31,966 bases of DNA, from positions 1 to 31,966 of IMG/VR virus record IMGVR_UViG_3300013010_000005; one strand, written 5' to 3'. This DNA is from a virus. Every line of letters starts with the position of its first letter. Positions within the stretch are counted from its first letter, which is position 1. Of this stretch, positions 12,293 through 31,966 are shown piece by piece. The notes beneath the pieces were generated by a model, which was not told where the DNA came from, made no database searches, and saw only the letters and a list, made by a program, of their open reading frames with translations. A program made the position numbers and the translations under genes.

Positions 12293-12647
12293 ATCTACAG
12301 GTCTTGGAGATTCCGTAGAGAAGGTTTTTAAAGCTACTGGAATAGACAAAGCAGCTAAGTGGTTGCTAGGTGAAGATTGCGGTTGTAGTGATCGTAGAGA
12401 GGTTTTAAATTCCATATTCCCCTACCAGAAACCTAATTGCTTAACAGAGGATGAACATAGCTACCTTTCAGATTACTTTAATACAAGTAGAACTAAGATA
12501 GATTCTATAATGCAAAAGGAGTTAGTTAAGATTTACAATAGAGTTTTTAATGATAATGCAAGAACAACTAACTGTACACCTTGCTTTGTAAATAATATCC
12601 ATAAAAAACTAGAACGAGTATTTAAAGAATATCAAGATGAGCGATAG
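12225..12647 (+). CDS. Conserved Cys-containing protein of unknown function
   Basis: A 140-residue protein with a lysine-rich, disordered N-terminus (residues 1-25), a helix (GLGDSVEKVFKATGIDKAAK), then the motif GEDCGCSDRRE (about 50-60), FPYQKPNCLTEDE (about 66-78) and a CTPC pair near 119-122. I recall this GEDCGC-FPY-CLT-E/D-E pattern from many phages of Bacteroidota, always without assigned function. The cysteines could bind zinc. It starts 68 bases before the end of the sigma-like gene, an unusually long overlap, which suggests coupled expression and perhaps a related role in transcription. Confidence 0.75.
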   Translation: MAKKTSGKAPKKSTKGTKTQKTKSTGLGDSVEKVFKATGIDKAAKWLLGEDCGCSDRREVLNSIFPYQKPNCLTEDEHSYLSDYFNTSRTKIDSIMQKELVKIYNRVFNDNARTTNCTPCFVNNIHKKLERVFKEYQDER

Positions 12648-12918
12648 TGTTACTAAATATTACGAGAGTCAAGGTTATTTCACAAACCATACTGGTAGTA
12701 AAACAATAGATCCTATGCAGGTTAGTATAGAGACGGATATAATTGTACAGGAGGTTAAGCAGATGTATGAGGAGCGAAGTCAAATAGGTATAGAGAAGTA
12801 TGGAACGACTCTAGAGAATAGCGATCAAGATACATTGGAATTTATCCAACATCTTCAAGAGGAATTGATGGATGCTACCTTATATCTACAGAAACTTAAA
12901 CATTTAATAAAAGAATAG
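12637..12918 (+). CDS. MazG-like / all-alpha NTP pyrophosphohydrolase-like protein
   Basis: A 93-residue helical protein. The segment EERSQIGIEKYGTTLEN (about 46-62) followed by a helix EFIQHLQEELMDATLYLQKL (about 68-87) matches small phage proteins related to MazG nucleotide pyrophosphohydrolases, where the EE-x-x-D cluster binds magnesium. It overlaps the previous gene by 11 bases. If active, it would remove unusual or excess nucleoside triphosphates. It is short for the family and only one acidic cluster is visible, so catalytic activity is uncertain. Confidence 0.6.
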   Translation: MSDSVTKYYESQGYFTNHTGSKTIDPMQVSIETDIIVQEVKQMYEERSQIGIEKYGTTLENSDQDTLEFIQHLQEELMDATLYLQKLKHLIKE

Positions 12919-12921
12919 ATT

Positions 12922-13080
12922 ATGCCAATCAAATTACAACCAAAGAAGTACGAAGAGAAAAAAGATTTTAACCGTAGATGTATGAATAATGCTTCTATGA
13001 TGGAGGATTATAAAGATAGAGATCAGAGGTTTACAGTATGCCAGACTTTATGGACTAAAAACTTTTCACCTAAAAAGTAG
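12922..13080 (+). CDS. Small basic protein with RFxxC-xxxW end
   Basis: A 52-residue protein (MPIKLQPKKYEEKKDFNRRC start, then DRDQRFTVCQTLW near the end). Two cysteines (20 and 40) sit in segments that resemble C-terminal pieces of some phage head-morphogenesis proteins, but I cannot assign a function. It is the last gene before a clear promoter. The codon pattern and the close spacing to the previous stop support translation. Confidence 0.6.
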   Translation: MPIKLQPKKYEEKKDFNRRCMNNASMMEDYKDRDQRFTVCQTLWTKNFSPKK

Positions 13081-21250: not shown

Positions 21251-21931
21251 ATGGCAACAATAACCTTATCCGTACCAACATCTCTAGATGACATTCAACT
21301 ATGGCAATACCAAGAGTATTTACAAGTTGCAGATAATCCAAATACTGAATATGTCAATAAGAAGCTCATAGAGCTGTTCTGTGGCGTTGATATGGACGAA
21401 GTGGACTCTATACCCCTAGTAGAGGTAGAAAAGGTCTTAGAAGTGCTTAAAATCGCTTTTGAGGAGGAAAGAGAGTTAATGAAGCATTTTACGTTGCGAG
21501 ATGTTGAGTTTGGTTTTATACCTAAACTAGATAATATTTCTCTTGGTGAGTTCATTGATCTGGAGAATACTATTACTGATTGGCAAGAAATCCATAAAGC
21601 TATGGCGGTGCTATATCGACCTGTTAACTTTAAGAAAGGTGATAAATATACAATAGCACCTTATTCTCCAAATGAAGAGATAGAAGAAATAATGAAAGAA
21701 ATGCCTCTTAGTGCCACAATGAGTGCTATGGTTTTTTTTTATCGTTTAGGGATTCAGTTGTCGAAGGCTACCCTGAAATATACACAGATGGCTCTGGAGA
21801 AAGAGGACAATATTCATCTTCAGAAAACTTTGGAGCATAGTGGGGATGGTATCAATCTATTTATGGAATCGCTAAAGGAGACTTACTTAAATTTGACGAA
21901 GTTACAGCACAACCTCTCCATAAATGTTTAA
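21251..21931 (+). CDS. Tail assembly chaperone, normal-frame product
   Basis: A 226-residue, acidic, helical protein, first gene of the tail unit, in the place of lambda gpG. It should coat the tape measure protein during tail assembly. The sequence has a conserved-looking N-terminal domain (about 1-150), then a helical end (KATLKYTQMALEKED and SGDGINLFMESLKE). Near codon 161 it runs over nine T's (21732-21740) in phase GTT TTT TTT TAT, an ideal -1 slip site. The -1 frame beyond is open for 33 codons, meets one TAG, and then continues for 52 more. The tape measure gene lies about 6 kb downstream, farther than usual. Confidence 0.8.
   Translation: MATITLSVPTSLDDIQLWQYQEYLQVADNPNTEYVNKKLIELFCGVDMDEVDSIPLVEVEKVLEVLKIAFEEERELMKHFTLRDVEFGFIPKLDNISLGEFIDLENTITDWQEIHKAMAVLYRPVNFKKGDKYTIAPYSPNEEIEEIMKEMPLSATMSAMVFFYRLGIQLSKATLKYTQMALEKEDNIHLQKTLEHSGDGINLFMESLKETYLNLTKLQHNLSINV
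21732..21740 (+). other. Putative -1 frameshift slip site (nine T's)
   Basis: The phase is GTT TTT TTT TAT, so both ribosomal site tRNAs can re-pair perfectly after a one-base backward slip (heptamer T TTT TTT). The -1 frame is free of stops from 21712 to 21837. Tail assembly chaperone genes commonly use such a slip. Confidence 0.6.
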
Positions 21932-21999
21932 CATACTTAGTATTCGAAAAAGATAAAAATGAGTTAGAAGCTCAAATGATAAAAAACCAATATAAATGA
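21739..21999 (+). CDS. Frameshifted extension of the tail chaperone, interrupted by TAG
   Basis: The -1 frame from the slip site. It reads 33 codons (LSFRDSVVEG to SSSENFGA), a TAG at 21838-21840, then 52 codons starting WGWYQSIYGIAKGD and ending at TGA 21997-21999. The second part resembles the C-terminal extension of tail chaperones in flavobacterial siphophages as I remember it, where the residue before WGWYQ is usually lysine; one base change would turn AAG into TAG. This extension would recruit the tape measure. The end overlaps the next start (ATGA), as for a genuine gene. How the TAG is passed, if it is, is unknown. A canonical slip heptamer A AAT TTG at 21889-21895 would bypass the TAG but lose most of the conserved part. 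Confidence 0.55.
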
Positions 22000-27654: not shown

Positions 27655-27803
27655 TGGTAAAACAAATTATAGAGTTACTAAATATTGATGACTGGTACGG
27701 AGTATCAGAAGAGGTTGATATTGCCAAAGGAAAATACAAAGCTATAGGTACTGTAGAAGATATGAAAAAACAACTAAAGAGATACTACTATGGCACAAAA
27801 TAA
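27654..27803 (+). CDS. Unknown 49-residue protein before the tape measure
   Basis: A small charged protein (MVKQIIELLNIDDWYGVSEE, ending in a basic Tyr-rich tail). It starts at the hub stop (TAATG) and overlaps the tape measure start by 14 bases. Possibly a tape-measure-linked assembly factor; no family is recognised. Confidence 0.6.
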   Translation: MVKQIIELLNIDDWYGVSEEVDIAKGKYKAIGTVEDMKKQLKRYYYGTK

Positions 27804-29967
27804 AAAAGTATTTGTAGATATAAGAGTGTCCGATAAGGGGGCTAGTGCTACTATAAAAAAAACAGATCAAGCGGTACAAGGTCTTGCAAACTCTACTAAA
27901 AGCCTTAATAAAGCTAGTAAACAAAATAGAGCGCAATCAGGACTAAGTAATGCTATACTTATAGAATCTGGTAGGGTTGCTTCTGATGCTGCTTATGGTA
28001 TTCAAGGTGTAGCAAACAACTTAGGTCGTTTAATTGAACTTGGTCAGGAATTTGCCAGAACCAATAAAGGAGGTGGAATGGCAGGTGCTTTAAAGCAGTT
28101 GAAGGGTTCTTTCTTAGGTTTAGGTGGTGTTATAATAGGTGTTCAGTTATTACTAAGTTTTTTACCTAAAATAACTAAAGCGTTTCAAAATTGGTTAGCT
28201 GAAGTTACTGCAGTTACTAAAGCATTAAGAGAGGCTACTAATGTATATGGTTCTCAAATAGGAGCTCTTGAGACATATATTAGTTTTGTTAATGACTCTA
28301 ATGTATCTGACGATCAGAGGAGAATAGCTATTTCTAAAATAAACGATGAATTCAGTGACCTTAATATAGTTATAGATGAGAATACGGGATTAACAGATGA
28401 GCAAAAAATTGCTGTTGATAAGTATATAGATACATTAAAAAGACAGGCGGAATCTCAAGCCTTAGTTTCTGCTATACAGGAGAAGTATAAGGAGTCGTTC
28501 TTAAATTCATCAGAATCTGTAGCTGAAAATCTAGTTACTTGGGATAGTTTTGTTGGGGCTTTAAAAGGTATTGGTGTTGCAGGATCTATAGCTACTGGAG
28601 CTATTAGCGGTGCAGGTAAGGCAATAGGTGATGATAGTAAGGAGATACAAGAAGATATAGGTCTACTATTAGAAAAGTTAAAACAAGTTGGATTATTTAA
28701 TAATGACTCCGAGTCTGAAAATGGTTTAAAAGCTTCTGGTATAAGGAGAATAAAAGTATTTAAAGAAGTATTTAATGACCTTGAAAAGTTAGAAGAGAGG
28801 TATAGAAAAAGAGCTATAGACAGGTCTTTAATGACTGAAAGGGAAAAGATAGCTGTTGACGAGGAAAACAATCTTCGTGATCTAAATAGACGTACCAAGC
28901 AATTTGAAGAAAGAGAAAGGCTTCGACTAAAGAACTACATTAAACAAATAAATGAAGACCGACAGAAAGAGTTAGATAAAATAAAGGGTAAAGATAAAGA
29001 TGGTAAGAAATCTTTAGCTATAGATAAGAAATATAATGATGCCCTTAAGGATGCTAACGCTACTTTTAATAAGGAAATTATTGATTCTAAAAGAAAGGCT
29101 GCTGATGTAGAGGTTCAAATAAAAGAAGAAACTAACACCAAGATATTAAAGTTAGATAGAAAAGAAAGAGAGAGGGCTAGAAAAGAATTAGAACGTCAAA
29201 TAGTTATAGATAGAGATATAGCCAAGTCTAGGTCTTTGAATGACATAAGAGAGCTTACTCTTGTTGAGGGTCAGAAATCTAAAACTGTATTAGAGGGGTT
29301 ATTAGGTCTTAAGCGAAGCGAACTAACACTTCAAAGAGATTTAGTTAATGAGAAGAAAAGTATATCAGATACAGAAGTTAGACGTTTAGAAGGTTTACTT
29401 GATAATGATGAGTTAGTAGGGTTAGAGAGAAGTAAATTAGAAAAACAATTAGTTGAGGAACAAAGAAACAACACTTCTATTAAGATTACTTTAGCTGACG
29501 CAGAAGCTAAAGCTAAGGTTCAGGCTCTTGACGTTACTTCAAGTGCAATGAATTCATTTGCTAAATTAGTAGGTGAAAACTCTAAAGCAGGTAAAGCTCT
29601 ATCTATAGCCGCAACATTAATATCAACATACTCATCAGCACAAAAAGCATACGAGTCTCAATTTATGCCTATACCTACAGCTGATTCTCCTGTAAGAGGT
29701 ACTATAGCTGCAGCAGCAGCGGTAGCGAGTGGTTTAGCAAATGTTAAAACTATAATGAAAGTAGATTCCAAAGGAGAGACTACTGCATCAGCAAAACCTA
29801 GTATTCAGGCACCGAGTTTTAATGTAGTTGGAACTTCATCTACAAATCAACTAGCTCAGGCAGTATCAGGAAAAATAAATGAGCCATTAAAAGCATACGT
29901 TGTGGGTAAAGAAATAACAAATCAACAAGAATTAGATAGAAATACAATTTCAACAGCAGGACTATAA
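27790..29967 (+). CDS. Tape measure protein
   Basis: A 725-residue protein that sets tail length and is threaded through the tube. Features: an N-terminal region with AAYGIQGVANNLGRLIELG (about 68-86), a membrane-prone segment (about 107-125, GSFLGLGGVIIGVQLLLSF), a long charged coiled-coil region (about 315-580, rich in Lys, Glu and Arg), and an Ala-rich hydrophobic stretch (about 600-655) before a flexible end. At about 1.5 angstrom per residue the tail would be roughly 100 nm, which suits a siphophage. It comes after the hub-like gene, the reverse of the lambda order. Confidence 0.88.
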   Translation: MAQNKKVFVDIRVSDKGASATIKKTDQAVQGLANSTKSLNKASKQNRAQSGLSNAILIESGRVASDAAYGIQGVANNLGRLIELGQEFARTNKGGGMAGALKQLKGSFLGLGGVIIGVQLLLSFLPKITKAFQNWLAEVTAVTKALREATNVYGSQIGALETYISFVNDSNVSDDQRRIAISKINDEFSDLNIVIDENTGLTDEQKIAVDKYIDTLKRQAESQALVSAIQEKYKESFLNSSESVAENLVTWDSFVGALKGIGVAGSIATGAISGAGKAIGDDSKEIQEDIGLLLEKLKQVGLFNNDSESENGLKASGIRRIKVFKEVFNDLEKLEERYRKRAIDRSLMTEREKIAVDEENNLRDLNRRTKQFEERERLRLKNYIKQINEDRQKELDKIKGKDKDGKKSLAIDKKYNDALKDANATFNKEIIDSKRKAADVEVQIKEETNTKILKLDRKERERARKELERQIVIDRDIAKSRSLNDIRELTLVEGQKSKTVLEGLLGLKRSELTLQRDLVNEKKSISDTEVRRLEGLLDNDELVGLERSKLEKQLVEEQRNNTSIKITLADAEAKAKVQALDVTSSAMNSFAKLVGENSKAGKALSIAATLISTYSSAQKAYESQFMPIPTADSPVRGTIAAAAAVASGLANVKTIMKVDSKGETTASAKPSIQAPSFNVVGTSSTNQLAQAVSGKINEPLKAYVVGKEITNQQELDRNTISTAGL

Positions 29968-31638: not shown

Positions 31639-31966
31639 ATGGAAAGTCCAAAAGCAACATCATTACTGAATGAGATTCTACAGAAGTTGTCTTTGCTTAC
31701 TAAAGAAGAAGCTGCAGAAGAAGTAGTTCTTTCAGAAGAGGTAGAGGCTGTTGAAGAAGAAGCTCAAGAAGTAGCTGAAGCTACAGAAGAGTTAGCAGAA
31801 GCACCAGAAGAGTACACCGAAGAGGTGGTAGAAGAAGAGGCTGCATTAGAAGCAGGTTATGTTACTGAAGAAGCATTTGCAAGTAAAGTTAGTGAAATGG
31901 AAGCTGAATTAGCATCTATCAAAGCTATGGTTCAAGAGCAAATGAGTAGTTTAGTTAAAGAGAAAG
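31639..31966 (+). CDS. Putative capsid scaffolding protein, 5' part
   Basis: This is the start of the scaffold gene that continues at the window start; the last 123 bases repeat bases 1-123. Across the circle it encodes 167 residues. This part gives a helical start (MESPKATSLLNEILQKLSLL), then about 45 residues dominated by Glu, Val and Ala (EEVEAVEEEAQEVAEATEEL), giving a very acidic helix. The codons in this run are imperfect repeats of GAAGAAG-type units, which is a likely site for length variation. Acidic helical scaffolds of this size are usual ahead of HK97-fold capsid genes. Confidence 0.65.
   Translation, partial: MESPKATSLLNEILQKLSLLTKEEAAEEVVLSEEVEAVEEEAQEVAEATEELAEAPEEYTEEVVEEEAALEAGYVTEEAFASKVSEMEAELASIKAMVQEQMSSLVKEK
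31844..31966 (+). repeat. 123-base terminal direct repeat (copy of 1-123)
   Basis: Bases 31844-31966 are identical to bases 1-123. It lies inside the scaffold gene and preserves the reading frame, so the molecule is circular or circularly permuted, with the overlap most likely produced at assembly. Confidence 0.95.

Follow-up and report, generated by a model that had tools for sequence, protein, structure and literature searches.

An in-frame TAG, private to one genome, in the conserved -1 frame extension of a putative phage tail assembly chaperone gene

A gene in the window examined here (the whole stretch of viral DNA that was analysed, 31,966 bases) appears to be expressed by a conventional -1 frameshift of the lambda G/GT type, and the TAG codon that interrupts its conserved C-terminal extension is very probably either a nonsense change peculiar to this genome or an error of the consensus. 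The zero-frame protein of 226 aa would come from most ribosomes, and the smaller share that slips by -1 on T TTT TTT would add an extension of 86 codons; in the window genome a slipped ribosome would be expected to yield a product of 196 residues as opposed to 249. The TAG most likely arose either recently, by a single-base change of an ancestral AAG into a nonsense codon, or as an artefact of the population or its consensus, and would play no part in the mechanism. Chaperone function, the ribosomal nature of the slip and termination at the TAG are the parts of this account that we infer. The features concerned are the following.

21251..21931, + strand: putative tail assembly chaperone (gpG-like), zero-frame product of 226 aa, PHROG 32199 (ORF and homology)
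21732..21740, + strand: T9 slip site, with the heptamer T TTT TTT in phase at 21733-21739 (sequence and relatives)
21739..21837, + strand: linker of 33 codons read in the -1 frame once the slip has occurred, LSFRDSVVEG...NFGA (open in all relatives)
21775..21849, + strand: short stretch, TAG included, in which the window lineage has diverged (75-base block comparison)
21838..21840, + strand: in-frame TAG, private to the window genome, with a Lys, Gln or Arg codon in relatives (sequence and relatives)
21841..21999, + strand: conserved C-terminal extension, 52 codons (WGWYQSIY...) plus TGA (relatives)

Direct reading of the sequence places the run of nine T's in the phase GTT TTT TTT TAT within the zero-frame ORF, just as the first-pass annotation had it, with the in-phase slippery heptamer lying towards the 3' end of this first ORF and kept in relatives. 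The zero-frame protein matches phrog_32199 with E 3.9e-22 and has homologues at 37-89% identity, with 38 homologous loci in IMG/VR at 38-89%. Among the 185 distinct IMG/VR sequences compared, the window included, three are cut by contig ends before the T-run, and T9 or T10 is found in all 182 that retain its position. The phase NTT TTT TTT T recurs in nearly all of 183 sequences, and elsewhere in the same genes TTC makes up 27% of Phe codons, a count taken over related and thus not independent sequences. Since the residues directly after the run (LSFRD/LRFRE) are conserved, the natural slip would be at the T-run itself. Need this slip be ribosomal? The frame could alternatively be changed by transcriptional slippage that places an extra U in the mRNA, which we regard as unlikely: the run always has nine or ten T's, more than the heptamer that suffices for ribosomes, and RNAalifold found no conserved downstream stem, but the ninth T is also required for the -1 codon after the slip, so that the length of the run is no independent evidence, and known tail chaperones rely on ribosomal slippage (PMC5009743).

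The -1 frame from 21712 to 21999 reads CHNECYGFFLSFRDSVVEGYPEIYTDGSGERGQYSSSENFGA, then a stop, then WGWYQSIYGIAKGDLL...IKNQYK and the terminal stop, and the TAG at 21838-21840 is its sole internal one. The earlier description of a single interruption followed by a continuation in WGWYQ was therefore correct; the continuation comprises 52 codons, and its TGA (21997-21999) overlaps the ATG of the next ORF at 21996. Beyond the TAG the extension remains uninterrupted and is conserved over its full length, with 96% identity to one relative (L002), and at least 594 out of 600 candidate stretches were confirmed as relatives of the 52-aa extension, the best 80 of these 594 being 62-96% identical to it. 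Conserved as it is across at least 590 viral contigs, the -1 frame is far beyond chance, and the conservation past the T-run on which the first-pass proposal depended is borne out. Among genome contigs, one Bacteroidetes MAG carries T9 together with AAG; GenBank phages yielded no near relative by DNA and none for the extension.

What, then, occupies the position of the TAG in relatives? Across the 185 sequences the codon before WGWY is AAA in 82, AAG in 55, CAA in 21, CGA in 19 and AGG in two, with GAA, CAG, AAC, AGA, AAT and TAG occurring once each, i.e. a Lys, Gln or Arg codon in nearly all relatives and a sense codon in the other 184. A stop between the T-run and WGWY is likewise confined to the window, and a regular expression applied to all loci retrieved 190 sequences with TAG in one. 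IMG/VR scans for TAR before WGWYQSIY, for TAG before a looser motif and for TGA before WGWY returned no other contig, although they may leave out records very near the window and thus sister records of the same population. The TAG is accordingly unique to the window among the sequences compared. The lysine that the first-pass annotation had named at this position is indeed the prevailing residue (AAA and AAG, as counted above); its remark that AAG is one base from TAG applies to L005 and 54 others, but the two nearest relatives have AAA, two substitutions away, which also speaks against the preferred explanation of a private nonsense change.

Judged by its gene ends, TAG is a normal stop elsewhere in the window genome, where 11 of the 50 genes end in it, the large terminase gene included, and relatives have an ORF end at most of these positions. 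No tRNA gene, and hence no suppressor tRNA, was found in the 31,966-base window. Genome-wide reassignment of TAG (genetic code 15), or its recoding in late genes as in some crAss-like phages, is accordingly barely conceivable here. Such reassignment is known in phages of gut bacteria, as two reports indicate (PMC9523058, PMC10607447), but the window has a lone in-frame TAG in a conserved frame besides its TAG-ended genes and the missing suppressor, and genome-wide recoding was rejected as contradicted by gene ends that match those of relatives. As a separate observation, the gene at 12637-12918 ends in TAG and the next one (ATG at 12922; region 12637-13080) lies in the same frame; the nearest relative has the same two ORFs, and they look like ordinary neighbouring genes.

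Whether the TAG belongs to the phage or to its assembly can be approached through the rest of the contig. The sense-strand ORFs of the nearest contigs (L241 and L242/L243) that align with the window are all stop-free, stops occurring only in aligned antisense ORFs, and since comparable sense-strand genes are free of stops, no conserved frame other than that of the TAG at 21838-21840 shows a nonsense codon. General poor quality of the contig was set aside, there being no other stop in comparable sense-strand genes. The codon lies in a locally divergent stretch: over 21775-21849 the window differs by 23% from both nearest relatives, L002 and L003, which differ from each other by 3%, and adjacent 75-base blocks differ by 1-4%. 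This part of the linker may possibly be a small recombinant patch or a fast-changing (hypervariable) loop. A donor was sought, and L247 gave the only pattern match, yet it is a distant relative with AAA and was rejected.

A special case of the preferred explanation, to which we attach a tentative, minority probability, is that the assembly or its consensus is wrong here, or that a minority allele was recorded in a polymorphic patch. A TAG inside a 75-base segment that is 23% divergent between flanks that differ by a few percent is what strain mixing or local recombination gives; against this, comparable genes of the contig contain no other stop and the 123-base end overlap closes the contig. 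Loss of the T domain is lethal in lambda, and a true nonsense codon in a T-like domain, for which one would expect the same outcome, would be odd in an assembled consensus; this counts against the preferred explanation, as does a contig that is otherwise clean, which speaks against gross assembly error. As to the record itself, the identical ends (1-123 and 31844-31966) suggest that its 31,966 bases probably represent a complete circle of about 31.84 kb, and a gene that runs across the junction (31639-31966 and 3-299) has an intact homologue in L243.

The substitutions beyond the TAG bear on its age. In the -1 frame of 21841-21995, parsimony assigns five changes to the window branch: four are synonymous and the fifth replaces E by D, whereas 71-82% nonsynonymous changes would be expected under neutrality (P about 0.005-0.026, depending on the transition/transversion ratio, with only five changes to count, two of which, the nonsynonymous one and one of the synonymous, are placed ambiguously by the outgroups). 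When this stretch is read in the overlapping zero frame, the window and L002 differ by four nonsynonymous and no synonymous changes. Since these zero-frame differences are all nonsynonymous, the -1 frame would have been the constrained one, and the ratio of four synonymous changes to one conservative replacement after the TAG suggests that the extension stayed useful through most of the period after the split. The extension thus appears to have been under selection until recently, which fits a very recent TAG and an old but decoded TAG alike.

Could the TAG, then, be decoded? The first-pass annotation had raised the prospect of a chaperone that needs both a frameshift and readthrough, i.e. a two-step control in which the -1 slip is followed by UAG readthrough (with insertion of Gln, Lys or Tyr) to give a rarer full-length extension. 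We consider this quite improbable, even though the extension beyond the TAG is intact and conserved, its substitutions appear filtered in the -1 frame and Gln is naturally tolerated before WGWY (CAA or CAG in 22 of the 185 sequences). The TAG occurs in one contig only, without a stop conserved along with the downstream frame in relatives, and the window offers no suppressor tRNA; no pairs were predicted by RNAalifold in the aligned linker, and folding of the window's own linker is unremarkable (z -0.5). The base after the TAG is T, and a T after the stop favours termination in E. coli. Moreover, two low frequencies multiplied would leave very little GT-like protein. With a TAG that is private, is a normal stop elsewhere and has no suppressor tRNA to read it, the proposal finds no support. 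The stricter version, in which the TAG is fixed in the lineage and the essential extension is reached only through frameshift plus amber readthrough, by a host suppressor or a permissive context, seems marginally less probable still. If true, readthrough after the frameshift would constitute a second, multiplicative step of ratio control; the TAG would matter only if it is both fixed and decoded.

Another way of bypassing the TAG would be a later slip site, or reinitiation, downstream of it. With the zero frame open to 21931, ribosomes could in principle slip after 21840. Reading of 21841-21931, however, revealed neither an in-phase X XXY YYZ heptamer nor, in the -1 frame, any ATG, GTG or TTG codon, and the conserved LSFRD/LRFRE just behind the T-run places the natural slip there, leaving a later start of the extension very improbable. 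Of the options listed in the first-pass annotation, polymorphism, assembly error and an inactive extension fit best, and those of readthrough and a later slip site, for which no site was seen, are unsupported.

The identity of the gene rests on less direct grounds. The zero-frame protein has no match in Pfam, and its structure model (pLDDT 83) has none in the PDB; the model resembles many unnamed phage proteins, including proteins of P12024S and Flavobacterium phage 6H, and one weak match (E 0.02) is named tail assembly chaperone. The gene opens a series of late genes that continues to a tape-measure-like ORF of 725 aa (27790-29967); five genes separate the two, none of them with a functional family name. 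Taken together, the frameshift architecture and the gene position, from which the assignment is drawn, suggest that the gene probably encodes a tail assembly chaperone, in a group of marine flavobacterial phages. Of the tail chaperone frameshift first proposed, the frameshift and the conserved extension are strongly supported, and the chaperone identity is suggested by architecture, position and the one weak structural match. A limited search of the open-access literature found no prior description of a frameshift in these phages.

How does this gene compare with known systems? Phages with a reassigned TAG (genetic code 15) share with it an in-frame TAG in a structural-module gene; unlike them, the window has a single such codon, otherwise uses TAG as a normal terminator and carries no suppressor tRNA. 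Another parallel is the tail assembly chaperone frameshift of the lambda G/GT type, reportedly described by Xu, Hendrix and Duda in 2004 and reviewed in PMC5009743. The lambda -1 product bears the domain responsible for binding the tail tube protein (PMC5009743). As in lambda, a -1 slip in the window would occur towards the end of an upstream gene of a putative tail module and add a conserved C-terminal -1 extension, and the gene may likewise lie upstream of the tape measure gene. Unlike lambda, whose slip site is G GGA AAG, the window has a T9/T10 slip site, a TAG in the extension and no detectable Pfam relation.

The organisation recurs in the Nonlabens (Persicivirga) phages P12024L and P12024S (Inhavirus), whose genes 40/41 and 38/39 share the T9 and a -1 frame FFLSFRERL...LKWGWY (WSWY in P12024S), with the sense codon AAA (Lys) before WGWY/WSWY where the window has TAG. 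The zero-frame protein is 31% identical to its P12024L counterpart and the terminase 52% identical, and the similarity between the window and Nonlabens phage extensions is too low for BLASTP. The annotation of both phages treats the halves as two distinct hypothetical proteins, the second of which begins at an ATG that overlaps the stop of the first. Each of the two loci (L239, JQ823123.1 23946-24640; L240, JQ823122.1 23136-23830) nevertheless has the appearance of a single gene whose halves are connected by a -1 slip on T9, and as the second ORF has its own ATG, reinitiation is a further possibility there. The P12024L halves score as PHROGs 32199 and 38404, and two PHROG families of unknown function would thereby be linked as halves of one frameshifted gene, whose T9/T10 slip site is conserved throughout a large and mostly uncultured set of phages.
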